64,000 nt of DNA. Source: Lysobacter capsici (GTDB taxonomy: Bacteria; Pseudomonadota; Gammaproteobacteria; Xanthomonadales; Xanthomonadaceae). A model generated the notes under the pieces. The model made no database searches, was not told the DNA's origin, and saw only the letters and a program-made list of their open reading frames with translations. Made by a program: the position numbers and the translations under genes. The stretch covers positions 1,674,001 to 1,738,000 of the forward strand of contig NZ_CP094357.1 of NCBI RefSeq assembly GCF_014779555.2, written 5' to 3'. Positions 3,334-15,642 of this stretch are shown one piece after another (within the stretch, counting starts at the first letter, position 1; every line of letters starts with the position of its first letter).

Positions 3334-4440
3334 TCAGGAAAAAGCGACGGCGCGGCCGGCGACATGCACCTCGATGATGCGCAACTGCGGGTCCAGCACA
3401 ACGAAGTCGGCGCAGGCGCCAAGTTCAATGCGGCCGCGGTCGGACAGGCCCAGGTAGTCGGCGGGGAAGGTGGAAACGCGATGCGCGGCATCGGCGAGGT
3501 CCAGGCCGACCTCGACCAGATTGCGCAGCGCCTGGTCCATGGTCAATGCGCTGCCGGCGAGCGAACCGCTGGCCAGGCGCACGCAGCCCAGGCATTTGTG
3601 CACGCGCTGCGAACCCAGCGCGTATTCGCCGTCGGGCATGCCGGTCGCGGCGGTGGCGTCGGTGACCGCGTACAGGCGCGGAATCGCGCGCAGCGCGAGG
3701 CGGATCGCGCCGGGATGCACATGCTGCAGATCGGGGATCAATTCGGCGTACTCGGCATGCGCCAGCGCGGCCGCGGCGATGCCGGGCTTGTAGTGGTCGA
3801 CCCCGGTCATGCCGTTGAACAGATGAGTGAAGCCGGCCGCGCCGGCGCGCAGCGCGGCGACGCCATCCTCGTAGCTGCCGGCGCTGTGGCCGAGCTGGAC
3901 GCGGATGCCCATCGCGCTCAGCTGCGGGATCAACTCGTTGTGTGAGCCGATCTCCGGCGCCAGCGTCAGCACCTTGATCGGCGCCAGCGCGTGCAGGCGT
4001 TGCACCGATTCCAGGGTGGCTTCCACTGTCAGCGGCGGCTGCGCGCCGAGACGTTGCGGGCTGATGAAGGGGCCTTCCAGATGCACGCCGAGCACGCGCG
4101 CCGCATCCGGATCGGGTTCGGCGATGGCGGTGGCGAGCCCGCGCAGCGCGTGGACGATATCGGGCTCAGCCGCGGTCATGGTGGTGCCGAGCAGGGCGGT
4201 GGTGCCGTGGCGGACGTGCGCGCGCGCGACGGTGCGCGCGGCGTCGCCGCCCTGCATCAGGTCGACGCCGGCGGCGCCGTGCACATGCAGGTCGATGAAG
4301 CCGGGCAGAATGATAGTCTCGCCGATGTCGCCGTCGGCGACTTCTTCGATGGCGCGGATTTTCTGGTCGAAGCGGATGCGGCCGCGGCGCCAGCCTTCGG
4401 AAGTGAGGATCCGGCCTTGCAGATTGCGCAGTTCGGTCAC
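3334..4440 (-). CDS. nagA: N-acetylhexosamine-6-phosphate deacetylase (NagA/AgaA family)
   Basis: 368 residues. The amidohydrolase-fold metalloenzyme removes acetate from GlcNAc-6-P or GalNAc-6-P in the cytoplasm. Visible landmarks in order: LPGFIDLHVHG (metal HxH), HLEGPFISP (metal Glu), LGHSAGSYEDG (metal His), THLFNGM (metal His) and VTDATAATGMPDG (catalytic Asp). The start is a GTG whose bases overlap the TGA of the upstream regulator (GTGA at 4437-4440), so the two are translationally coupled. As last gene of an operon with agaS it is more likely to serve GalNAc-6-P than GlcNAc-6-P; sequence alone does not separate the two substrates. Confidence 0.92.
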   Translation of the reverse strand: MTELRNLQGRILTSEGWRRGRIRFDQKIRAIEEVADGDIGETIILPGFIDLHVHGAAGVDLMQGGDAARTVARAHVRHGTTALLGTTMTAAEPDIVHALRGLATAIAEPDPDAARVLGVHLEGPFISPQRLGAQPPLTVEATLESVQRLHALAPIKVLTLAPEIGSHNELIPQLSAMGIRVQLGHSAGSYEDGVAALRAGAAGFTHLFNGMTGVDHYKPGIAAAALAHAEYAELIPDLQHVHPGAIRLALRAIPRLYAVTDATAATGMPDGEYALGSQRVHKCLGCVRLASGSLAGSALTMDQALRNLVEVGLDLADAAHRVSTFPADYLGLSDRGRIELGACADFVVLDPQLRIIEVHVAGRAVAFS

Positions 4441-5219
4441 GGCGTCGCCTCGGCGATGATCACTTCGATGCCCAGTTGTTGCAGACCCTCGCGATAGCGG
4501 TCGTCGATGCCGGCGTCGGTGATGATGGCGTGGATCTGATCGAGACGGGCGATGCGGTGCAGGCTGACCCGGCCGAATTTCGAGGCGTCGGTCAGCACCA
4601 CGATGCGGCGCGCGTGTTCGACCATGCGATGGTTGAGCCGCGCCTCGGCTTCGTCGTGGGTGGTCAGGCCGAACTGCAGGTCCAGGCCGTCCACGCCGAG
4701 AAACAAGGTGTCGAAGCTGTAGGCATTGAGGCTGGCCTCGGCCTGGCTGCCTTGCAGCGACAGCGATTGCTTGCGCAGCACGCCGCCGCTGAGCAGCACG
4801 TCGACGCCGGGCGCGTTGGCGAGTTCCCAGGCGATGTTGAGGCCGTTGGTCATCACCGTGACATCGCGATGGCCGCGCAGATGGCGGGCCAGGGTCATGG
4901 TGGTCGAACCCGAGTCGATGATGATGTTGTCGCCGGCCTGCACCAGTTGCGCGGCGCGCGCGCCGATGCGCTCTTTCAGAGGCAGGTTCAGCGCGTCCTT
5001 CTCGTGGATGTCCTGTTCCTGCGGCGGCGTGCGCACCAGCGCGGCGCCGCCGTGGGTGCGGGTGGCCAGGCCCTGCGATTCGATATGGCTCAGGTCGGCG
5101 CGGATGGTCACCGCCGACACGCCGAAGCGCTCGACCAGCTCGGCCACCTGCACCGAGCCGAGCTCGATCAGGCATTGCAGGATCTGTTGCCGGCGGGCGC
5201 GGGTGTTGCGAATGGCCAT
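4437..5219 (-). CDS. agaR: DeoR family transcriptional regulator, AgaR-like
   Basis: 260 residues. An N-terminal DeoR winged helix (about 6-60: RQQILQCLIELGSVQVAELV, then VSAVTIRADLSHIE) is followed by a sugar-phosphate sensing domain with the DSGST-type phosphate loop (NIIIDSGSTTM, about 98-108). DeoR proteins of this group repress sugar operons and release DNA on binding the phosphorylated sugar. It is the fourth gene of the amino-sugar operon, 27 bases after the kbaZ-like gene and overlapping nagA by four bases. The CTTTCG repeats in the 8738-9071 intergenic region are the obvious candidate targets. The symbol is by context. Confidence 0.88.
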   Translation of the reverse strand: MAIRNTRARRQQILQCLIELGSVQVAELVERFGVSAVTIRADLSHIESQGLATRTHGGAALVRTPPQEQDIHEKDALNLPLKERIGARAAQLVQAGDNIIIDSGSTTMTLARHLRGHRDVTVMTNGLNIAWELANAPGVDVLLSGGVLRKQSLSLQGSQAEASLNAYSFDTLFLGVDGLDLQFGLTTHDEAEARLNHRMVEHARRIVVLTDASKFGRVSLHRIARLDQIHAIITDAGIDDRYREGLQQLGIEVIIAEATP

Positions 5220-5246
5220 CGGTGGGTCCGCGGTAAAGGTCGAAGA

Positions 5247-6569
5247 TTAGCCGTTCGCGGCGGCAGTGGCGCGGGATGCGCGCGCACCGGCCGTGTTCGC
5301 CGAGCAGGCGCGGGCGTATTCGTCCAGGCACAGGCCGATGCGATGGCGTACCAGCGCTTCGGGCGTGTTGGCCAGGGTGCCGGCGCGCACCGCGCGGTAT
5401 TGCTCGGGCAGGTGCTGGCTCAGCAGGAACAGCGGCGGCGCATGCGCGCGCAGGTTGTCGAACAGGCGTTGCACGGCGGCGATCAGGGCCGGTTCGCCCC
5501 AGTAATAACGGCAGCGATCGCTGAGTGCGTACAGCCGCAGCAGATGCAGTTCGCGTTCGTCGCCGTGGTAGTGCTGCCGCCAGTGGCGCGGGTTGTCGAG
5601 CATGCACTGCTCCAGCGCCTGCGGCAGATTCGAGCGTTGCTGCGGCGGCAACAGTTCGGCTTCGATCGCGGCCAGCGCGAACAGCGCTTCGCGATAGGCG
5701 AAGGTCGCGGCCGGGCCGACCTTGAGGATTGCGAAATGATCGCGCACCAGCGCGTGCAGGCCGTCCTCGCGCTGGTAGTCGGTGGAATGCGCTTCGAACA
5801 CGATGCGCGGCTGGCGTTCGAGAAAATCGGCCAGCGCTTGCGCGGCGACCGGATCGTAGTCGTGCACGCTGCTGTGATCGAAGTCGACACCGGGTTGCAC
5901 CACCATCGCGATCACCCGCTCCCAGGCCGGCGCCAGATCGGGCGCGGCGAAGGCGTCGCGGTGGATCGCCAAAGTCTGTTCGGCGGCCTGCGGCGTGGTC
6001 ACCGCCAGACCGCCGGCCAGCGAGGCTTCGCCGCCGGGCACCGGCACTTCGGTGCCGATCACGTACACCGGCGGCGGCAGGCCATGCGCGGCGGCGGTGC
6101 GTTCGGCGATGCGCGCAAGTTCGGCCGAACGCGCGGCGACGGTGGCGTCCGGCAGCGGGGTGGGGTCGTCGGCGCAGGACATGCTGCAGTCCAGATGGAT
6201 CTTGTGGAAACCGGCGGCGACATAGGCTTCGATCAGCACCCGCGCATGCGCCATGGCTTCCTCGGCCGGCCGTTTCTGCCACGCGTTCGGACCGAGATGA
6301 TCGCCGCCAAGCACCAGCCGGTCGGCCGGGAACTGTTCTTCGCGGGCCAACGCGAGCACGTAGTCGCGGTACTGCGGCGGGGTCATGCCGGTGTAGCCGC
6401 CGAACTGGTCGACCTGGTTGGAGGTCGCTTCGATCAGCAGCAAGGTGTCGTGACGGCGGGCCACGTCCATCGCGGCGCGCAGCACCAGTTCATTGCTGCA
6501 GCACACGCTGTACAGACCGACGTTGCGGCCCTGGCGGTGGGAGGCGATCAGCGATTGCACGGGCGACAT
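5247..6569 (-). CDS. kbaZ: KbaZ/GatZ family protein (tagatose-phosphate kinase or aldolase subunit)
   Basis: 440 residues with hallmarks of the GatZ/KbaZ family: VGLYSVCCSNELVL, IEATSNQVDQFGGYTGM, GGDHLGPN, KIHLDCSMSC and HSTDYQ. In enterobacteria these proteins are the non-catalytic partner of class II tagatose-1,6-bisphosphate aldolase; in Shewanella aga clusters the homologue AgaZ was proposed to be the tagatose-6-phosphate kinase. No catalytic KbaY/GatY partner lies in this window, which favours the kinase proposal here (inference). ATG at 6569 follows GGAG at proper spacing; the longer open frame to 6716 overlaps the kinase gene and lacks family sequence. A short Ala-rich tail follows the conserved part. 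Confidence 0.9.
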   Translation of the reverse strand: MSPVQSLIASHRQGRNVGLYSVCCSNELVLRAAMDVARRHDTLLLIEATSNQVDQFGGYTGMTPPQYRDYVLALAREEQFPADRLVLGGDHLGPNAWQKRPAEEAMAHARVLIEAYVAAGFHKIHLDCSMSCADDPTPLPDATVAARSAELARIAERTAAAHGLPPPVYVIGTEVPVPGGEASLAGGLAVTTPQAAEQTLAIHRDAFAAPDLAPAWERVIAMVVQPGVDFDHSSVHDYDPVAAQALADFLERQPRIVFEAHSTDYQREDGLHALVRDHFAILKVGPAATFAYREALFALAAIEAELLPPQQRSNLPQALEQCMLDNPRHWRQHYHGDERELHLLRLYALSDRCRYYWGEPALIAAVQRLFDNLRAHAPPLFLLSQHLPEQYRAVRAGTLANTPEALVRHRIGLCLDEYARACSANTAGARASRATAAANG

Positions 6570-6618
6570 GGCGAAACTCCAACGCGATTCGGGACGACTC
6601 GGTACGAGCCGGGAAAAC

Positions 6619-7560
6619 TCAGGACAACGTCGGCGCCCAGGCCAGCAACGCCGCGCCGCGCGCGCCGCCGGCGCCGCCGAAGCGCGGCGGCACGATCGGC
6701 GGCACCTGCACGCCATCGAACAGATGCGCGGCGACCGCCGCCGGCAACACGCCGTACAGCGGTGCGTGTTGCGACAGACCGCCGCCGAGCACGATCACGT
6801 GCGGATCCAGCACCAGCACCAGCTTGGCCAAACTGTGGCCGAGCAAATCCAGATGGATGGCCATGACTTCGCGCGCCCGCACATCGCCCGCGTCGGCCAG
6901 GGCGAGCACCGCGGCGGCATCGGCCGCTTCGCCGCCGAAATGACGGTGCAGCGCGACCAGACCGCTGCCCGAGACATAACGCTCGACGCAGCCGCGCAAA
7001 CCGCAGGCGCAATCCAGCACCGGCAACGCATAGCGCTGCAGCAGTTGCCCGGGCACGCTCCAGTGGCCCCATTCGCCGGCCAGGCCGTTGAAACCGGTCA
7101 CCAACCGACCGTGCAGGCAGTAGCCGCCGCCCGCGCCGGTGCCGAGGATCGCGCCGAACATGCTCGGATAACCCTCGGCGGCGCCGCCATGCGCTTCGGA
7201 CAAGGCGAAGCACTGCAGATCGTTGCCGAAGTGCAGCGGCCGCCGCAGCCGCGCCTGCAAGTCGGCGGCGACCTTCTGGCCGGTCAAGGCCGGCACGTTG
7301 GCGCTGAGCTGACGGCCGCTGCGCGGATCGCGCACGCCGGGCAGGGCGATGCCGATCGCGGCGTCGGCGAGTCCGAGTTCGGCGTCGGCCGCGGCGACCA
7401 GCGCTTCGAGCGCGGCCAGGAAACCCGGGTATTTGCCCTGCGGCGTGGCGATGCGCCGACGATGGCGCACTTCCAATGCGGCATCGCAGGCGACCAATTC
7501 GATCTTGGTGCCGCCGATGTCGATGCCGTAACAGATCGCGGAAGCGGCGGCGTCAGCCAT
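6619..7560 (-). CDS. ROK family amino-sugar kinase (probable GalNAc or GlcNAc kinase)
   Basis: 313 residues. The N-terminal phosphate motif GIDIGGTKIE (about 12-21), the GTGAGGGYCLHG loop (about 139-150) and the zinc-binding CACGLRGCVE cluster (about 184-193) identify a ROK sugar kinase, which uses ATP to phosphorylate a free hexose in the cytoplasm. ELAGEWGHW-like sequence (GLAGEWGHWSV) supplies the substrate His/Glu. The ATG overlaps the end of agaS by eight bases, so the two are co-translated. Context with agaS and a deacetylase points to GalNAc as substrate, analogous to AgaK; NagK activity on GlcNAc cannot be excluded from sequence. Confidence 0.9.
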   Translation of the reverse strand: MADAAASAICYGIDIGGTKIELVACDAALEVRHRRRIATPQGKYPGFLAALEALVAAADAELGLADAAIGIALPGVRDPRSGRQLSANVPALTGQKVAADLQARLRRPLHFGNDLQCFALSEAHGGAAEGYPSMFGAILGTGAGGGYCLHGRLVTGFNGLAGEWGHWSVPGQLLQRYALPVLDCACGLRGCVERYVSGSGLVALHRHFGGEAADAAAVLALADAGDVRAREVMAIHLDLLGHSLAKLVLVLDPHVIVLGGGLSQHAPLYGVLPAAVAAHLFDGVQVPPIVPPRFGGAGGARGAALLAWAPTLS

Positions 7561-8737
7561 GGTGAATGGTGACGCCCTTGACCACCCGGTTGACGGTGCC
7601 GTCCGGGAAGGGATTGTCGGGGGTCAGGCCGAGCGCGGCCGAACGCTGGAGCGCGTACATCTGCGCGAAGGTCAGCCAGACCGGCGCCAGCCAGCCGTCG
7701 GAAAACATGCCGTCGGCGAACGTGCTGTCGTGTTGCGGCGGCAGCCGCAGGCTGTAGTCGTCGCCGCCGCCGATGTCGGCATGCGGACCGATCGACAGCA
7801 CTTGCCCGGCGACGCCATCGCGGCGCAGTTCGTCGAGCAGATCGTGTTCGTAACGGCGCGCGAGCGCGTGATTGCTGCGCATCACCACCACCAGCGTTTC
7901 GCCGTCGAGCGTGGACTTGGGCCCGTGGCGAAACCCCAGCGGCGTATTGGCCAAGGCCAGGACGCGACCGGCGGTGAGTTCGAGCACCTTCAACGCGGCT
8001 TCGCGCGCCAGCGCTTCCAGCGGGCCGCTGGCCAGGTAGATCACGCGAGTGAACGGACGCTGCGCCAATGCCGCGACCGGCGCATCCCACTGCGCCAGAC
8101 CTTCGCGCGCGAGCTCGGCTAATTGTTGCAGGCGTTCGATCCGCCGCGGCCACGGCGCGCGGTCGAACACGCTCAGCGCGGCCAGCAGCATGCAGCTCAG
8201 GCTGCTGGTCATGGCGAAGGCGCGGTCGCAACTCGCCGCCGGCATCAGCACGGTGCAGGTGTCGTCGCGGCCGGCGCCGCGGCGGGCGAGTTCGCCCTGC
8301 GGATTGCAGGTGATGTCGAGAAAGCGCGCGTGTTCGACTTGCGCGCGCACCAGTTCGACCGCGGCCACGCTCTCCGGGCTGGAACCGCTGCGGCCGAACG
8401 ACACCAGCAGGGTCGGGCGGTCGCGCTGCAGGTACAGCGCCGGATGAGTCAGCAGATTGGTGGTATGCAGCGCGCGCACTTCGGCCGGCCATTGCGCGTT
8501 GATGGCGTCGGCGACCAGATCGGCGATGAAGCCCGAACTGCCGGCGCCGGTGAACAGCACGCGCTGGCGCGGGTCGTCGAGGCAGTCGCCGAGAAAGGCC
8601 TGCACGCGTTCGCGCGCCTGCGCCAGATCGCGGGCCAGTTCGTCCCACAACGCGGGTTGCTGGGCGATTTCGGCGGCGGTATCGGCTCCGCCCAGGCGCT
8701 GCCAGGCGGTCGAGTCGGGGAGCGGGGTGAGGTCCAT
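7553..8737 (-). CDS. agaS: AgaS, galactosamine-6-phosphate deaminase/isomerase (SIS domains)
   Basis: 394 residues with two sugar-isomerase (SIS) domains. The first has LFTGAGSSGFIAD (about 60-72) and VSFGRSGSSPESVA (about 112-125); the second has YLASGPLEALAREAALKVLE and PLGFRHGPKSTLDG. This layout matches AgaS, which turns GalN-6-P into tagatose-6-P and ammonia in the cytoplasm. It is the promoter-proximal gene of a five-gene minus-strand operon and begins about 40 bases from the first CTTTCG box. An AGGG Shine-Dalgarno precedes the ATG at seven bases. A glucosamine-6-P deaminase of similar fold (NagB-II) is the main alternative, but the HGPKSTLDG region fits AgaS better. Confidence 0.88.
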   Translation of the reverse strand: MDLTPLPDSTAWQRLGGADTAAEIAQQPALWDELARDLAQARERVQAFLGDCLDDPRQRVLFTGAGSSGFIADLVADAINAQWPAEVRALHTTNLLTHPALYLQRDRPTLLVSFGRSGSSPESVAAVELVRAQVEHARFLDITCNPQGELARRGAGRDDTCTVLMPAASCDRAFAMTSSLSCMLLAALSVFDRAPWPRRIERLQQLAELAREGLAQWDAPVAALAQRPFTRVIYLASGPLEALAREAALKVLELTAGRVLALANTPLGFRHGPKSTLDGETLVVVMRSNHALARRYEHDLLDELRRDGVAGQVLSIGPHADIGGGDDYSLRLPPQHDSTFADGMFSDGWLAPVWLTFAQMYALQRSAALGLTPDNPFPDGTVNRVVKGVTIHHG

Positions 8738-9071
8738 GGAGAATCCCTGTTGAGCGCGGTGACGATCTGCGTTTTCTTTCGGAAAGTCAATTATCGAAAG
8801 TAAAACAAAAGAAATAGGCCGGATGAGTTTGTTGTCGGAACCGGTTCGGAAAAAACGAAAGATCGGCTTGGATTTGCTTTCGTTGCGTGCTTAACAGGGG
8901 TTTTTGCCAGGTTTAGAAAGTATTGCATCGCACAATCTTTCGTTTTGCCCGATAAATTCTTCCTTTTTTCTTTCAATTCATTGACAGCTTTCGAATCACT
9001 GCCCTAGAGTCGGTCGCAACAGGTTTCGAATGCCCGCCGAGCGGGTCCTTGGGGGCAAGGTGATATTCCGC
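8738..9071. promoter_or_regulatory. Shared divergent control region with six CTTTCG boxes
   Basis: This 334-base AT-richer gap separates agaS from the GH31 gene. The hexamer CTTTCG occurs at 8776-8781, 8877-8882, 8937-8942 and 8988-8993, and as its complement CGAAAG at 8795-8800 and 8856-8861, with near matches at 8781-8786 (GGAAAG), 8915-8920 (AGAAAG) and 8970-8975 (CTTTCA). AgaR-type DeoR regulators are known to bind CTTTC-like repeats, so these are probable operators controlling both directions. That the repeats exist is seen directly; binding is inferred. Confidence 0.75.
8981..9010 (+). promoter_or_regulatory. Sigma-70 promoter for the GH31 gene
   Basis: A perfect TTGACA (-35, 8981-8986) and TAGAGT (-10, 9005-9010) are separated by 18 bases, about 60 bases before the GH31 start codon. 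One CTTTCG box (8988-8993) lies in the spacer, exactly where a repressor would block polymerase. Confidence 0.65.
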
Positions 9072-12000
9072 ATGCGTCGTCCGCGTCCGTCGATCGCGAT
9101 TCTTTCGAGCACGATTCTGGCCGCGCTGCTGGCGTCGCCGGCCGTGGCCGAGCCGGTCGGCAATCTGCGCGCGGTCCGCGCCGAGGCCGGCGCGACGCCG
9201 AGCTGGGAGCTGAGCACCGACACCGGCAGCGTGCTGCGTATCGAAGTGCTGGCGCAGGACATCGTGCGGGTGCAGGCCGGGCGCCGCGGCAAGCTGACGC
9301 CGGCGGGCGACAAGGCCGCGCCGATCGTGCTGCCGCAACCGACGGCGAAGGTCGACGCCACGTTGGAGGAAGACGCCGCCGAAGTGCGCGTGCGCACCGG
9401 CGCGCTGGTGCTGCACGTGCAACGGCAACCGTTGAAGCTGCGGCTGGAGCGGATCGATGGCGAACGCCGCACCGCGCTGTGGCAGGAACTGCAACCGCTG
9501 GACCTCGACGCGACCCAGAGCGTGCAGGTGCTGTCGTCGCAGGCCGACGAGGCGTTCTATGGCGGCGGCCAGCAGAACGGGCGTTACCAGTTCAAGGGCC
9601 GCGAACTGGAGGTCTCGTACTCCGGCGGCTGGGAAGAAGGCGACCGCCCGAGCCCGGCGCCGATGCTGCTGAGCTCGCGCGGCTGGGGCATGTTGCGCAA
9701 CACCTGGAGCGACGGCAGTTACGACCTGCGTCAGCCCGATCAATCCACCTTGCTGCATCGCGAAGATCGCTTCGACGTTTATTACTTCGTCGGCGAACTG
9801 CCGCGCCTGCTCGAACGCTACACCCTGCTGACCGGCCGTCCCGGCCTGTTGCCGCGCTGGGCGCTGTCGTACGGCGACGCCGATTGCTACAACGACGGCG
9901 ACAACGGCAAGAAGCCCGGGACCGTGCCCGAAGGCTGGCACGATGGCCCGACCGGCACCACGATCGATGTGGTCGAGAGCGTCGCGCGCCAGTATCGCGA
10001 ACACGACATGCCCGGCGGCTGGATCCTGCCCAACGACGGCTACGGCTGCGGCTACAAGCAATTGCCCGAAACGGTGAAGGGGCTAGCGAAATACGGCTTC
10101 CGCACCGGCCTGTGGACCGAGAACGGCGTCGACAAGATCGCCTGGGAAGTCGGCACCGCCGGCAGCCGGGTGCAGAAGCTCGACGTGGCCTGGACCGGCA
10201 AGGGCTATCAGTTCGCGATGGACGCCAATCAATCGGCGTTCAACGGCATCTTGCACAACTCCGATTCGCGCCCGTTCCTGTGGACGGTGATGGGCTGGGC
10301 CGGCATCCAGCGCTATGCGGTGGCCTGGACCGGCGATCAGAGCGCGAGCTGGGATTACATCCGCTGGCATGTGCCGACCCTGATCGGTTCGGGCCTGTCG
10401 GGCATGGCCTACGCCACCGGCGACGTCGATGCGATCTTCGGCGGCAGCGCCGAAACCTATACCCGCGATCTGCAATGGAAAGCCTTCACCCCGGTGCTGA
10501 TGGGCATGTCGGGTTGGTCGTCGAATGCGCGCAAGCATCCGTGGTGGTTCGACGAGCCGTATCGCAGCATCAATCGCGATTATCTGAAATTGAAGATGCG
10601 GCTGACGCCGTACATGTACGGCCTCGCGCACGATGCCGCGCAGACCGGCGCGCCGCCGGTGCGCGGGCTGATGTGGGATTACCCGCAAGACCCGCATGCG
10701 CGCGACGAGGCCTACAAGTACCAGTTCCTGCTCGGCCGCGATCTGCTGGTGGCGCCGGTCTATCGCAGCCAGGCCGCGAGCCGCGGCTGGCGGCGCGGTA
10801 TCCATCTGCCGGCCGGACGCTGGATCGATTACTGGGACGGACGCAGCGTGCAGGCCGGCGCCGCCGGGCGCGAACTCGATCGTCAAGTCGATCTCGCCAC
10901 GCTGCCGCTGTTCGTGCGTGCCGGCGCGATCGTGCCGATGCATCCGGCGATGCTGTTCGACGGCGAAAAGCCGCTCGACGAAATCACCTTCGACCTGTAT
11001 CCGCAGGGCGATTCGCAGTACACGCTGTACGAGGACGACGGCAATACGCGCCGCCATGAGCAAGGCGAGTCGAGCACCCAGCAGGTGCGCATGAGTGCGC
11101 CGGCGCAGGGCAGCGGCCCGGTGAATGTGCGGATCGATGCGGTGCAGGGCCAGTACCAGGGCCAGTTGCCGCAACGCCGCTACGGCTTGCGCGTGCTCAG
11201 CCGGCAGGCGCCGCGCGCGGTGTCGGTCGACGGTCGCGCATTGCCGAAGCTGGCCGATGCCGCAGCGCTTCAAGCCGCGACCGAAGGTTGGTATTTCGAT
11301 CCGGCCGAGCGCAAGGGCAGCGTGCATGTGCGTACCGCCGCGGTCGACATTCGCAAGCCGTTGCAGGTCGCGCTCGACATCGCCGTCGCCGCGGCGCCCG
11401 CCGACGATGCCTTCCCGGCCGCGCCGGCGCTCGGTCGCGCGCTGCCGGCCGACAGCTTGCTGGTGGTCAATCGTCCGGCCGAAGAACCCGGGCATGCGTT
11501 GGAAAATGCCTTCGACGACGATCCGGCGACGTGGTTCCGCAGCGTGCGCAATCAGGCCGTGCGTACCGGGGCGCACGAATGGACGGTTGGTTTCGGCGAA
11601 CGCAAGTTGATCGACGGCATCGAGATCGCGCCGCGCAACGACAAGAACTGGAAGCACGGCCAGGTCCGCGACTACGAGGTGTACCTGGGCGACAGCAACG
11701 GCGAATGGGGCGAACCGATCGCGCGCGGCCGTCTGCAGCTCAAGCAGGAAACGCAGCGCATCGATTTCCCCGCGCGCGCCGGCCGGCTGCTGCGCTTCCG
11801 CGTGCTCAGCGTGCAGAACCCCGAGGGCGACGGCGCATCGGCGACCGATCCGATGGTCACCGCTGCTCAAGGCAATGCGGCGCGCGCGGTCGATGCATTG
11901 CAGCCGCGCGATGTCGGCCCGATCGCGCTGTCGAGTTTCCACATCCTCGAACACCAGGAACCCGAGCGTCCGGCGCAGCAGCGCTATCTGTCCGAGCTGG

Positions 12001-12422
12001 CGTTGCCGGCCGCGTTGAAGAGTCAGGTGCATGCCGATCGCGCCTTCCGCGGCGACGACGCGCTGCGCATGAACGGTCTGCTGTTCCGCCGCGGGTTGGG
12101 CGTCGGCCCGGCCAGCCGCATCGATCTGCGTCTGCAAGGCCAGTGGCGATTGCTGCGCGCCGACCTCGGCATCGACGATGCCTGCCGCGCCGCCGGCGGC
12201 CTGCAGTTCCAGGTCTGGGGCGACGAGCGTCTGCTTTACGACAGCGGCTTGGTGAAGGCGCCGGGCGTGGTCAAGCCGGAGCTCGATATCCGCGGTCTGT
12301 CGACCTTGAGCCTGCGCACGCTCGGCGCGCAGGGCAGCCAACCCGCGCAGGTGTGCGCGAACTGGGCCAACGCCGTGCTGATCGGCCAGGAGGGCGACAG
12401 CGCCAGCGTGGTCGCGCCATGA
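9072..12422 (+). CDS. Secreted GH31 glycosidase with F5/8 and NPCBM domains, probable alpha-N-acetylgalactosaminidase
   Basis: 1116 residues. A signal peptide covers about 1-26 (ends SPAVAEP). A GH31 N-terminal beta-sandwich is followed by the (beta/alpha)8 barrel; KLDVAWTG at D371 is in the nucleophile position and AVAWTGDQS at D422 in the acid/base position, with LIGSGLSGMAYATGDVDAIF following as in GH31 enzymes. After the GH31 C-terminal sandwich come a discoidin-like F5/8 domain (about 793-925) and an NPCBM domain (about 970-1105). GH31 members with this C-terminal architecture include alpha-N-acetylgalactosaminidases. The start is the ATG at 9072, which gives a clean signal peptide; a longer frame from 9030 would not. 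Location beside aga genes and a CTTTCG operator supports GalNAc release; alpha-glucosidase or alpha-galactosidase activity is the alternative. Confidence 0.85.
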   Translation: MRRPRPSIAILSSTILAALLASPAVAEPVGNLRAVRAEAGATPSWELSTDTGSVLRIEVLAQDIVRVQAGRRGKLTPAGDKAAPIVLPQPTAKVDATLEEDAAEVRVRTGALVLHVQRQPLKLRLERIDGERRTALWQELQPLDLDATQSVQVLSSQADEAFYGGGQQNGRYQFKGRELEVSYSGGWEEGDRPSPAPMLLSSRGWGMLRNTWSDGSYDLRQPDQSTLLHREDRFDVYYFVGELPRLLERYTLLTGRPGLLPRWALSYGDADCYNDGDNGKKPGTVPEGWHDGPTGTTIDVVESVARQYREHDMPGGWILPNDGYGCGYKQLPETVKGLAKYGFRTGLWTENGVDKIAWEVGTAGSRVQKLDVAWTGKGYQFAMDANQSAFNGILHNSDSRPFLWTVMGWAGIQRYAVAWTGDQSASWDYIRWHVPTLIGSGLSGMAYATGDVDAIFGGSAETYTRDLQWKAFTPVLMGMSGWSSNARKHPWWFDEPYRSINRDYLKLKMRLTPYMYGLAHDAAQTGAPPVRGLMWDYPQDPHARDEAYKYQFLLGRDLLVAPVYRSQAASRGWRRGIHLPAGRWIDYWDGRSVQAGAAGRELDRQVDLATLPLFVRAGAIVPMHPAMLFDGEKPLDEITFDLYPQGDSQYTLYEDDGNTRRHEQGESSTQQVRMSAPAQGSGPVNVRIDAVQGQYQGQLPQRRYGLRVLSRQAPRAVSVDGRALPKLADAAALQAATEGWYFDPAERKGSVHVRTAAVDIRKPLQVALDIAVAAAPADDAFPAAPALGRALPADSLLVVNRPAEEPGHALENAFDDDPATWFRSVRNQAVRTGAHEWTVGFGERKLIDGIEIAPRNDKNWKHGQVRDYEVYLGDSNGEWGEPIARGRLQLKQETQRIDFPARAGRLLRFRVLSVQNPEGDGASATDPMVTAAQGNAARAVDALQPRDVGPIALSSFHILEHQEPERPAQQRYLSELALPAALKSQVHADRAFRGDDALRMNGLLFRRGLGVGPASRIDLRLQGQWRLLRADLGIDDACRAAGGLQFQVWGDERLLYDSGLVKAPGVVKPELDIRGLSTLSLRTLGAQGSQPAQVCANWANAVLIGQEGDSASVVAP

Positions 12423-12560
12423 ACCTTGCGAATCCCCAATCCCGAACACGCCCTCGAACACGCAACACAACCGCCGCACCGCACCCGCCAAACCCCGTCA
12501 GCAACGCCGAACCCGTAACCCCGAACCCGTAACACCGCTCCTCCCCCGCCCATACCGACT

Positions 12561-12576
12561 GCGGCCTTTTGGCCGC
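12561..12576 (+). terminator. Hairpin between GH31 and TonB receptor genes
   Basis: GCGGCC-TTTT-GGCCGC forms a perfect 6-bp stem within the 217-base gap. There is no following T run, so it may be a processing or attenuation hairpin rather than a true terminator; read-through into the receptor gene is possible. Confidence 0.35.
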
Positions 12577-12639
12577 GGCCCGGGATCGCTGTTGCCCTTC
12601 GTCCGCCATCCGCGCCGCAGTCCTGCCAGGAGAGTTCCG

Positions 12640-15600
12640 ATGTTGCCCGCAAGCCGCCGTACGCGCCGTCCACGCGCCAACCGCATCCCCGCCACCCCGT
12701 TGTCGCTGGCCCTGGCCGTCGCGCTGCTGGGTCATGTATCCCTCGCAGCCGCACAGGATGGCGCGGCCAGCACGGACAGCAAGGACAAGACCACCGAACT
12801 GTCGCGGGTGGAAGTCACCGGTTCCAACATCCGCCGCACCGATGTGGAAACCGCATCGCCGGTGCAGATCGTCAGCAAGCAGGACATCGAGAACATGGGC
12901 GCGCGCACCTTGTTGCAGGTGCTCGACAACCTGCCGGCCGCGCGCCCGGCGCAGCAGGATTCGCGCTCGCTGTTCACCGGGTCCGACGGCGCCTCGCAGG
13001 CCAATCTGCGCGGCCTCGGCGCGCAGGGCACGCTGGTGCTGTTGAACGGCCGGCGCCTGTCGTACTACGGCGCGCCGGCCGGGTTCCAGACCCAGTTCGT
13101 CAACATCGACGCGATTCCCGCCGCGGCGATCGAACGCATGGAAGTGCTGACCGACGGCGCCTCGGCGGTGTACGGCACCGACGCGGTGGCCGGCGTGATC
13201 AACGTGATCACCAAGCGCAATTACCAGGGCGCGGAGGTCAACCTGACCACCGACATGTCCTCGCGCATCGATTCCTACGGCGAGCATCAGGCCAGCATCA
13301 CCGCCGGCTTCGGCGACCTCGACGAAGACCGCTACAACGTCTACGCCTCGGTCAACCTGTACCGCCGCGACGCGATTCCGCTGAGCGATTTCTACGACAA
13401 GCGGCCCAAGCAGTACTACGTCAACAACCCGAACTACCTCAACAACCTGCGCCTGGGCACCGGCAGCAAGCCGGGCGTGTTCAACCCAGGCAGCTACTTC
13501 GCCTTCGACCCGGTCACAGGCCGGCGCGTGCAGGAAGCCGCGCCGGGCTGCAACAACGTGCTCACCACCGAAGCCGCGGGCCCGCGTTGCATCTGGCAGA
13601 CCTGGATGAACAACGAGATCGACGCCGGCGCCAAGTCCGAACGCAACACCGCCTACGTCAACGCGCATTTCCTGATCGGCGACAGCACCGAGGCCTTCGC
13701 CGAGGCGACCTATACCGACATCGACCTGCGCGCCAACGGCGGCACGCCGCGCGCCTACAACACCACCACCGGCAATCCGACCAGCTGGTTCTCGCGCAAC
13801 ACCGGCACCTCGGTCAATCAGTTCCTGTATCCCTTCCTCGGCCCGAACAACGAGTACAACCACGCCAGCCCGCAGCTCAGGGCGATGATGGGCGGCGTGG
13901 TGGGCCTGCAGTATCTGTTGCAGGACGCGGGCGCGAACTACTTCGGCCAGCGCAACACCGACAAGAGCTATCGCGCGCTCGGCGGCCTGCGCGGCGCCAT
14001 CGGCGACTGGAACTGGGAAACCGCGTTCGCCACCGCCGGCACCCACTCGACCACCTACCAGACCATCAACGTCAACCTGGAAGGCTTCGAGAAAGCGTTC
14101 GGCCCGTACACCACCGACCCGGGCACCGGCCGGGTGATCATCTCCGACCATCCGGCGTACAAGTTCGGTCAGATCAGCGACGCCAACGCGGCGCTGATCC
14201 GCGCGGCGTTCCCGACCTTCGACATCCAGTCCTGGACCCGCCTGCACACCCTCGACGGCAAGATCGAAGGCCCGCTGTTCAAGCTGCCGGCCGGCGAAGT
14301 GCGCGCGGCGTTCGGCTTCAACGTCAGCCGCGAGACCTTCTACACCCCGGGTAACGAAGACGCGGCCAACGGCCTGATCACCCAGCAGGGCGGTTCATGG
14401 TTCGACGGCAAGCGCAACACCTATGCGGTGTTCGCCGAGGCCGTCGCGCCGCTGACCGACAAGCTCGAACTCGACGCCGCGCTGCGCGTGGACAAGTACC
14501 CGAACTTCAGCGCCAACGTCGCGCCGAAGATCGGCCTGAAATATCAGGTGTTGCCGCAACTGCTGTTGCGCGGCACCTATTCGGAAGGCTTCCGCGCGCC
14601 GAGCCTGGCCGAGTCCGGCACCGGCGGCGTGTTCGCCCAGCTCGGCGGTTACCGCGACGAGGTCCGCTGCGACGAGACCAACGCCATCGCCAACCTGCTG
14701 CGTCAATCGCGCCGCAGCGGCGATGTGGACCTGGGCAATTCGCTGCTCAACGCCGACTGCAGCCGCACCGTGGCGCGCATGACCCAGCCCAATCAGGACC
14801 TCAAGCCGGAGAAGGCCAAGATCGGCACCCTGGGCTTCGTGTTCGAGCCGCTGGACTGGCTGTCGGTGTCGGCCGACTACTGGTTCATCTATCGCCGCAA
14901 CGAGATCGCCGCGCCGGACTACAGCAAGGACGAAGACATCCTGTCGTCGACGCGTTCGCCGATCACCGAGTCCGACCGCGCCGCGGTGGCCGCGCTGGCG
15001 GCGATGTGCGCCGATCCGGCCAGCGGCGTGAGCTGTCCGGGCGCGCTGCCGGGCTACAGCGTCGGCAACGTCGCCAGCGTCGTCGGCCAGTACAAGAACA
15101 AGGGCCGCACCCTGATCGACGGCTTCGACATCGATGCGCGCAGCCGCTTCTCGCTGGGCGAGTGGGGCAGCCTCAACATCGGCCTGGCCGCGACCATCGC
15201 GCGCCGCAATCAGGCCTATCTGGACGACGAGAACGGCTGGTACTACGGCAACACCGTGGGCTATTACGGCAATCCGCGTCTGCGCGCGACGATCAACGCC
15301 GACTGGAACTACCGCCAGGTGACCACCAGCTTCTTCGTGAACTACGTCGGCACCACCAAGTGGGCCTGGGAACGCATCGACGCGGAGGACAACAATCCGC
15401 AGACCTGCACCGCCGGTTACCTGCCGGTGGCCAAGGCCCAGTGCGACGGCGTGCCGTCGTGGTGGACGGCGAATCTGAGCCTGACCTGGCGTCCGACCGA
15501 AAAGCTCAACGTCGGCGTCACCGTCAAGAACCTGTTCGATCGTCTGCCGTTCTACGATCCCAACAGCTTCCTCGGCGATTCCAGCGACTACGCCAGCATC

Positions 15601-15642
15601 TTCGGCCGCAGCTACAGCTTCACGGTCGGCTACAAGTTCTGA
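12640..15642 (+). CDS. TonB-dependent outer-membrane receptor, probable oligosaccharide importer
   Basis: 1000 residues. A signal peptide with Arg-rich n-region covers about 1-42 (ends SLAAAQ). The plug begins at VEVTGSNIRRTDVETASPVQ and continues through NMGARTLLQVLDNLPA, VLLNGRRLSYYGAP and VLTDGASAVYGTDAVAGVINVIT; the barrel ends in SYSFTVGYKF with the terminal Phe needed for outer-membrane assembly. The GSNI(R)R plug is typical of carbohydrate-linked receptors in Xanthomonadaceae. It follows the GH31 gene on the same strand and is probably co-regulated, importing sugars released by that enzyme (inference). AGGAGA precedes the ATG at 12640; the frame upstream to 12592 begins with TTG and is less likely. 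Confidence 0.92.
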   Translation: MLPASRRTRRPRANRIPATPLSLALAVALLGHVSLAAAQDGAASTDSKDKTTELSRVEVTGSNIRRTDVETASPVQIVSKQDIENMGARTLLQVLDNLPAARPAQQDSRSLFTGSDGASQANLRGLGAQGTLVLLNGRRLSYYGAPAGFQTQFVNIDAIPAAAIERMEVLTDGASAVYGTDAVAGVINVITKRNYQGAEVNLTTDMSSRIDSYGEHQASITAGFGDLDEDRYNVYASVNLYRRDAIPLSDFYDKRPKQYYVNNPNYLNNLRLGTGSKPGVFNPGSYFAFDPVTGRRVQEAAPGCNNVLTTEAAGPRCIWQTWMNNEIDAGAKSERNTAYVNAHFLIGDSTEAFAEATYTDIDLRANGGTPRAYNTTTGNPTSWFSRNTGTSVNQFLYPFLGPNNEYNHASPQLRAMMGGVVGLQYLLQDAGANYFGQRNTDKSYRALGGLRGAIGDWNWETAFATAGTHSTTYQTINVNLEGFEKAFGPYTTDPGTGRVIISDHPAYKFGQISDANAALIRAAFPTFDIQSWTRLHTLDGKIEGPLFKLPAGEVRAAFGFNVSRETFYTPGNEDAANGLITQQGGSWFDGKRNTYAVFAEAVAPLTDKLELDAALRVDKYPNFSANVAPKIGLKYQVLPQLLLRGTYSEGFRAPSLAESGTGGVFAQLGGYRDEVRCDETNAIANLLRQSRRSGDVDLGNSLLNADCSRTVARMTQPNQDLKPEKAKIGTLGFVFEPLDWLSVSADYWFIYRRNEIAAPDYSKDEDILSSTRSPITESDRAAVAALAAMCADPASGVSCPGALPGYSVGNVASVVGQYKNKGRTLIDGFDIDARSRFSLGEWGSLNIGLAATIARRNQAYLDDENGWYYGNTVGYYGNPRLRATINADWNYRQVTTSFFVNYVGTTKWAWERIDAEDNNPQTCTAGYLPVAKAQCDGVPSWWTANLSLTWRPTEKLNVGVTVKNLFDRLPFYDPNSFLGDSSDYASIFGRSYSFTVGYKF

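Follow-up and report, generated by a model that had tools for sequence, protein, structure and literature searches.

The role of KbaZ/GatZ proteins is unsettled: the family model describes them as a non-catalytic aldolase subunit, others regard them as kinases, and a 2025 study reported them as epimerases. In that study (PMC11907403), deletion of gatZ abolished tagatose formation in Escherichia coli, expression of gatZ or kbaZ together with a phosphatase restored it, and either gene also supported tagatose formation from glucose when both gatY and kbaY were missing from the strain; expression of fbaA, gatY or kbaY did not bring tagatose formation back. GatZ and KbaZ were reported to act as fructose-6-phosphate/tagatose-6-phosphate epimerases, and models show GatZ as a zinc-dependent relative of the class II aldolases. 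In a 2025 review, N-acetylgalactosamine (GalNAc) is degraded via tagatose-1,6-bisphosphate, and AgaZ is mentioned as the kinase that has been proposed (PMC12118421). We analysed a 64,000-nucleotide stretch of the Lysobacter capsici genome (the window, G000:C1:1674001-1738000, from a single contig of 6.24 Mb), in which seven genes form a putative GalNAc locus with a kbaZ gene and no kbaY. The locus is probably controlled by AgaR and directed at alpha-linked GalNAc, with the lone KbaZ epimerising tagatose-6-phosphate into fructose-6-phosphate.

A minus-strand operon in the order agaS, ROK kinase gene, kbaZ, agaR and nagA faces the plus-strand genes of a secreted glycoside hydrolase family 31 (GH31) enzyme and a TonB-dependent receptor. 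A frame check of the window found all seven frames open at the coordinates and in the order given here, and all seven match named families, which bears out the arrangement described in the original prediction, an earlier reading of the same letters: agaS, ROK, kbaZ-like, DeoR and nagA-like genes facing GH31 and a receptor. Neighbouring operon genes overlap or nearly abut, with 8 bp shared by agaS and the ROK kinase gene and a further overlap between agaR and nagA. Families, gene order, conservation, regulatory boxes and the lack of a match to two aldolase families were read from the sequence, and the enzymatic steps are inferred from them. The secreted GH31 enzyme would release alpha-linked GalNAc, the receptor would carry the sugar or a small glycan across the outer membrane, and the ROK kinase would convert GalNAc to GalNAc-6-phosphate in the cytoplasm. 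Deacetylation by the nagA-like enzyme would then yield galactosamine-6-phosphate, from which AgaS would form tagatose-6-phosphate and ammonia; this intermediate, already named in the original prediction, would follow from AgaS by pathway knowledge. Finally, KbaZ would epimerise tagatose-6-phosphate at C4 to fructose-6-phosphate, so that the sugar would enter central metabolism without tagatose-1,6-bisphosphate.

The kbaZ/gatZ gene (5247..6569, minus strand, start at 6569) encodes a protein that matches TIGR02810 with 602.6 bits (cut-off 568.8) and has a solved relative in 2fiq (417 bits). All seven residues aligned with C20, E44, D87, H88, E171, H257 and K279 of GatZ are kept. Among the 106 loci given, some of them fetched twice, 101 had a KbaZ match and no covered GatZ active-site residue was changed; the partial match in L069 does not reach four of the seven residues. 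The class II aldolase family PF01116 had no match in the L. capsici genome, which hence shows no KbaY or GatY, and the LacD-type aldolase family PF01791 had none either; run on 14 control genomes, the same searches were positive in 11 (PF01116) and 13 (PF01791). KbaZ itself is rare: of 377 genomes in the class, eight match PF08013. Strong KbaZ matches (over 390 bits) occurred in 26 of the 29 genomes searched for PF01116, and 25 of these 26 lacked PF01116 above the cut-off, 23 of them from the family of L. capsici and two from another family (G177 and G392). One strong-KbaZ genome, G333, has PF01116 too; outside the 26, PF08013 is matched weakly in G160, which has PF01116, and in G349, which lacks it. 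Furthermore, a GTDB genome scan with alignment A1 returned 242 loci, the best 80 of which were kept as the nearest part of the family, and a tblastn search with three class II aldolase proteins found none in the stretches fetched around these 80 loci (up to 10 kb on each side). From this pattern and the E. coli findings, KbaZ here most likely epimerises tagatose-6-phosphate to fructose-6-phosphate. The two genomes of the other family carry aga-type loci with KbaZ (L067 and L068) and no PF01116 match at all, and form a second KbaZ-alone lineage; L067, the one locus in which phosphotransferase system (PTS) families were looked at, carries PTS genes.

One indication of the substrate is the GH31 enzyme (9072..12422, plus strand), which is secreted, carries F5/8 and NPCBM domains and is a predicted alpha-N-acetylgalactosaminidase. 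Its three best solved chains, 6m76, 7f7r and 7f7q (376, 374 and 372 bits, residues 139-759), are the Enterococcus faecalis GH31 alpha-N-acetylgalactosaminidase and two variants, and the next protein follows at 169 bits. The position altered in 7f7r and 7f7q corresponds to Asp385 of the Lysobacter enzyme, and Asp436 aligns with a second conserved Asp, both being invariant in 13 aligned GH31 sequences; on the general pattern of GH31 enzymes, Asp385 is taken to be the nucleophile and Asp436 the acid/base. Subfamily GH31_18 so far consists of alpha-GalNAc-active members only, according to the passages available of PMC13096917; the placement of the Lysobacter enzyme in it rests on its closest solved relatives rather than on a subfamily tree. 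The regulator gene agaR (4437..5219, minus strand) encodes a DeoR-family repressor that matches the AgaR equivalog NF040755 (332 bits, cut-off 260). In addition, 66 of the 80 related loci contain a GH109 gene, whose copy in L072 matches the solved alpha-N-acetylgalactosaminidase 2ixa with 515 bits, and the L. capsici genome holds GlcNAc-type (N-acetylglucosamine) genes elsewhere. The assignment of alpha-linked GalNAc as substrate in the original prediction thus gains from all four observations, and alpha-GalNAc scavenging is a well-supported prediction for this locus. Mucin-type glycans, suggested in the original prediction, and fungal galactosaminogalactan are candidate sources of the sugar. 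The GH31 start probably lies at 9072, although a longer frame runs from 9030, and that of the receptor (12592..15642, plus strand; PF07715 and PF00593) probably at 12640, as signal-peptide-like stretches, read by eye, begin there.

The divergent control region between agaS and the GH31 gene (8738..9071) may carry sites of the regulator. CTTTC is reportedly the AgaR box, as described by Leyn and colleagues in 2012, and the motif was chosen before the boxes were counted. Nine CTTTC/GAAAG boxes occur in this 334-base gap, the highest count among 334-base stretches taken at 10-base steps in the window (mean 0.41), and none of 500 dinucleotide shuffles reached nine (average 1.68). Of 80 related gaps, 72 fell within the length and match limits; they contained on average 6.75 boxes against 1.44 in shuffles, and in 71 of them at most 5% of 100 shuffles reached the box count, the loci being related and not independent. 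Across these 72 gaps, CTTTC was the most enriched among five-mers occurring more than 60 times. Four spacers before GH109 and GH31 in L072 and L027, where there is no aga operon, carry one or two boxes each. The boxes are putative AgaR operator sites, and AgaR control of the locus would follow from them.

Other fates of tagatose-6-phosphate have to be weighed against epimerisation. In the classical route, a PfkB or PFK kinase would phosphorylate it and a class I aldolase would cleave tagatose-1,6-bisphosphate, with KbaZ as a leftover or accessory protein. The L. capsici genome gives eight PfkB matches and encodes a single PFK and a single class I fructose-bisphosphate aldolase (a 347-residue open frame ending at TGA), which together could perform both steps, and the review mentioned above draws the path through the bisphosphate (PMC12118421). 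The E. coli study of tagatose formation names PfkB a tagatose-6-phosphate kinase and refers to older experiments in which tagatose-bisphosphate aldolase activity rose with gatZ (PMC11907403). Decay would be expected of a leftover, however, whereas the KbaZ active-site residues are kept in the homologs tested and the gene is present in 75 of the 80 loci, none of which shows a class II aldolase in the part fetched; we therefore regard the classical route as improbable. Less probable still is that KbaZ is itself the tagatose-6-phosphate kinase, as proposed for AgaZ (PMC12118421), and supplies the class I aldolase. The solved relatives 2fiq and 3txv do carry this name, yet KbaZ matches no kinase family, and both the epimerase activity and the zinc-enzyme model reported for GatZ in the passages cited (PMC11907403) speak for another chemistry.

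The preferred reading, AgaR-controlled GalNAc use with an epimerising KbaZ, has further points weighing against it besides these kinases, the aldolase and the two reports on PfkB and gatZ. The 26 strong-KbaZ genomes are not independent, 23 belonging to one family, and one genome (G034) has a PF01116 match of 20.1 bits, below the cut-off; moreover, the seven GatZ active-site residues were derived from models rather than mutants (PMC11907403, passages available). The agaS product (7553..8737, minus strand), a predicted galactosamine-6-phosphate deaminase/isomerase, has TIGR02815 as its best family match at 403.6 bits, under the NCBIfam cut-off of 529.2. The ROK sugar kinase (6619..7560, minus strand; PF00480), a putative GalNAc kinase (agaK), is closest to GlcNAc kinases among solved proteins, and the nagA/agaA-like N-acetylhexosamine-6-phosphate deacetylase (3334..4440, minus strand, GTG start at 4440), an amidohydrolase that passes TIGR00221 in the profile search (228.4 bits, cut-off 225.65), is closest to solved GlcNAc enzymes. 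Nor does the genome hold an ortholog of the permease found in the related loci, only short generic matches to the major facilitator superfamily (MFS; best 34.6 bits), other carriers not having been searched for. The kinase and deacetylase would also fit a locus that serves GlcNAc or a galacto-glycan instead of GalNAc, a reading to which we give hardly any weight: the AgaR and AgaS families and the GH31 and GH109 alpha-N-acetylgalactosaminidases indicate GalNAc, and a separate GlcNAc-type set is present in L070 (about C1:152.7 kb), comprising a second nagA (37% identical), a GntR-type regulator and, below its cut-off of 430 bits, a NagB-II-like protein (339 bits). The best solved relatives of AgaS are the AgaS-type chains 3odp, 3c3j and 3i0z (243-277 bits), with glucosamine-6-phosphate synthase and deaminase chains at 49.5 bits or less.

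The description of the locus as complete-looking in the original prediction is not supported. By tblastn, the window matched no class II aldolase and no permease of the kind found in relatives, so a complete pathway inside it was rejected; genes were named to about 18 kb and frames listed to 22 kb, the remainder being covered by tblastn with these proteins, so that another carrier may lie beyond. At the level of the genome, no ortholog of that permease and no match to either aldolase family was found, as noted above. In relatives, the permease adjoins nagA (L035-L040, L065 and L066). A partly annotated region left of the window (L071) encodes a TRAP transporter (DctM and DctP) and a PfkB kinase, which were not tied to the locus.

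GH31 was matched in all 20 same-genus genomes searched, L. capsici included, and in G006 as two pieces (L072:11313-14667, two reading frames; an assembly error or a pseudogene). The five-gene operon stands beside GH31 and the receptor in 19 of 20 fetched relative loci, L027 being the exception, and with this conservation the arrangement is not due to chance. In the best 80 loci, genes were scored as present wherever in the fetched stretch they reached 45% coverage and an identity floor of 50-60%. The whole set of kbaZ, agaS, ROK, agaR, nagA, Sugar_tr permease, receptor and GH109 was found in 58 of these 80 loci; the single counts were 76 each for agaS, ROK and agaR, 75 for kbaZ, 71 for the receptor, 69 for nagA, 66 for GH109 and 61 for the permease. 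The remaining 22 loci are without one or more genes, and some of their stretches end at contig ends (L104, L117 and L143). Most of the 80 loci come from Lysobacter, Stenotrophomonas, Pseudoxanthomonas, Luteimonas, Thermomonas, Duganella, Massilia, Janthinobacterium and Rugamonas; L134 is labelled Bacillus subtilis, which was taken as a mislabel. The pairing that the original prediction had called unusual and integrated is therefore common among the closest loci and of a known kind, the Shewanella aga genes also being paired with a TonB receptor (PMC2996990, passages available), and its unusualness was rejected. Among the matches listed from open-licence papers, judged by their entries and the openings of their abstracts, no description of the locus in Lysobacter or Stenotrophomonas was found, nor of GalNAc use via KbaZ epimerisation or of an oxidative GalNAc pathway.

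Some related loci differ in composition. In six of them (L129, L131, L136, L137, L138 and L147), agaR, kbaZ, ROK and agaS are present, and neither nagA nor a permease was recognised in the part fetched. A secreted-looking protein lies near the locus in some Burkholderiales (L164:21462-22772, L159:8632-9960 and L152:8718-10025); the L164 copy matches DUF3472/DUF5077 and the solved 4qhw, and the L159 and L152 copies were judged by look. In G006, a different aga locus (L074:2234-11716) contains KbaZ, AgaS, a probable TonB receptor (by look), an AgaR-like protein just under the cut-off and a melibiase-type (PF02065) enzyme.

An alternative genetic context of the same glycosidases was observed in three relatives, where a cassette spanning L072:1826-11091, L027:10582-19360 and L179:1507-10093 lies beside GH109. 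Family assignments, run on the G006 copies, gave a 397-residue protein, a short-chain dehydrogenase/reductase (SDR), a D-serine-deaminase-like enzyme, an RpiR regulator, a D-aminoacylase-like enzyme, a DGOK kinase and a KDPGal aldolase. Genes of the OngB, OngC, OngD and OngR types, known from the oxidative use of chitin (PMC9537276), are among them. In G006 and G007, GH31 and the receptor follow GH109 and face the cassette operon, with a RidA gene before GH109 in L072; G005 (L179) has GH109 and the cassette minus the 397-residue protein, without GH31. KbaZ had no match in G007 and in G006 lies elsewhere, within L074. In these genomes, GH31 and the receptor have apparently been relocated to the site of GH109 and the oxidative cassette. 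A swap of cassettes at one fixed site (L027 and L072) was rejected, as L027 shares flanking genes with the L. capsici GH109 region. That region, outside the window (GH109 at C1:5324613; L178:9323-12357, C1:5324.3-5327.4 kb), contains GH109 and a D-serine-deaminase-like gene, and no other cassette gene in the 19 kb of L178, the only stretch searched; the pair is an apparent remnant of the cassette. At least one cassette gene adjoins GH109 in all ten GH109 loci returned from 24 genomes (L088-L097, G006 included), and in L034-L040 GH109 is instead found past the receptor gene in the aga locus. The 397-residue protein (L072:7802-8992) has no Pfam or NCBIfam match, and its homologs occur in Lysobacter, Chitiniphilus, Chitinimonas, Massilia and Undibacterium.

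The cassette context supports GalNAc as the sugar shared by both sites and suggests a second, oxidative route for it; GlcNAc is a possible cassette substrate as well, since several genera named after chitin carry homologs of the 397-residue protein. The proposed oxidative module would consist of the SDR, a D-aminoacylase-type deacetylase, a D-serine-deaminase-type enzyme, RidA, RpiR, the DGOK kinase and the KDPGal aldolase. Tentatively, and with somewhat more doubt than confidence, two GalNAc modules may share one alpha-N-acetylgalactosaminidase/receptor front end in Lysobacter, a KbaZ branch leading to fructose-6-phosphate and an Ong-like branch to pyruvate and glyceraldehyde-3-phosphate, neither via tagatose-1,6-bisphosphate. 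A KbaZ kept in a GalNAc operon, in a genome without a class II aldolase match, offers a clean natural test of the function of this family. Should the epimerase reading hold here, a second branch would have to be added to GalNAc maps that run via tagatose-1,6-bisphosphate, and the annotation of many aga loci would change. The relatives' loci are also a source of alpha-N-acetylgalactosaminidases from two families.

Compared with the E. coli aga/gam cluster with KbaY-KbaZ, with which it shares AgaR, AgaS, KbaZ and the deacetylase, the Lysobacter locus is without PTS and KbaY and has a glycosidase and a receptor added. The E. faecalis GH31_18 alpha-N-acetylgalactosaminidases (6m76, 7f7r and 7f7q) match residues 139-759 of its GH31 enzyme with both catalytic Asp aligned, whereas the Lysobacter enzyme has downstream F5/8 and NPCBM domains and a Gram-negative host. 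The Shewanella aga pathway (AgaK, AgaA-II, AgaS, AgaP, omp-Aga and AgaO), as described in the passages available (PMC2996990), likewise uses a permease and kinase instead of a PTS, its own TonB receptor and AgaS; here, in contrast, the glycosidase is GH31 (with GH109 in relatives), and no tagatose-bisphosphate aldolase family was matched in the L. capsici genome. The Bacteroides thetaiotaomicron polysaccharide utilization locus BT4240-50 (GH109 and a GalNAc kinase) also joins an alpha-N-acetylgalactosaminidase and GalNAc metabolism in one locus, but its APH-type kinase is thought to act on O1 of GalNAc, and the passages available make no mention of agaS (PMC11992087). Like the ong cluster (PMC9537276, passages available), the cassette of the relatives has OngB-, OngC-, OngD- and OngR-like genes, here adjoining GH109 and in two relatives also GH31 and the receptor; unlike it, its kinase and aldolase are of galacto-type (DGOK and KDPGal aldolase), and alpha-N-acetylgalactosaminidases replace the GH20 enzyme OngA. 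Finally, the Lysobacter KbaZ belongs to the same GatZ/KbaZ family as the tagatose-6-phosphate 4-epimerases of Agrobacterium and Sinorhizobium and GatZ and KbaZ of E. coli, and keeps the seven GatZ residues; those enzymes are known from galactitol and tagatose work (PMC11907403, passages available), whereas the Lysobacter KbaZ sits in a locus for GalNAc use.

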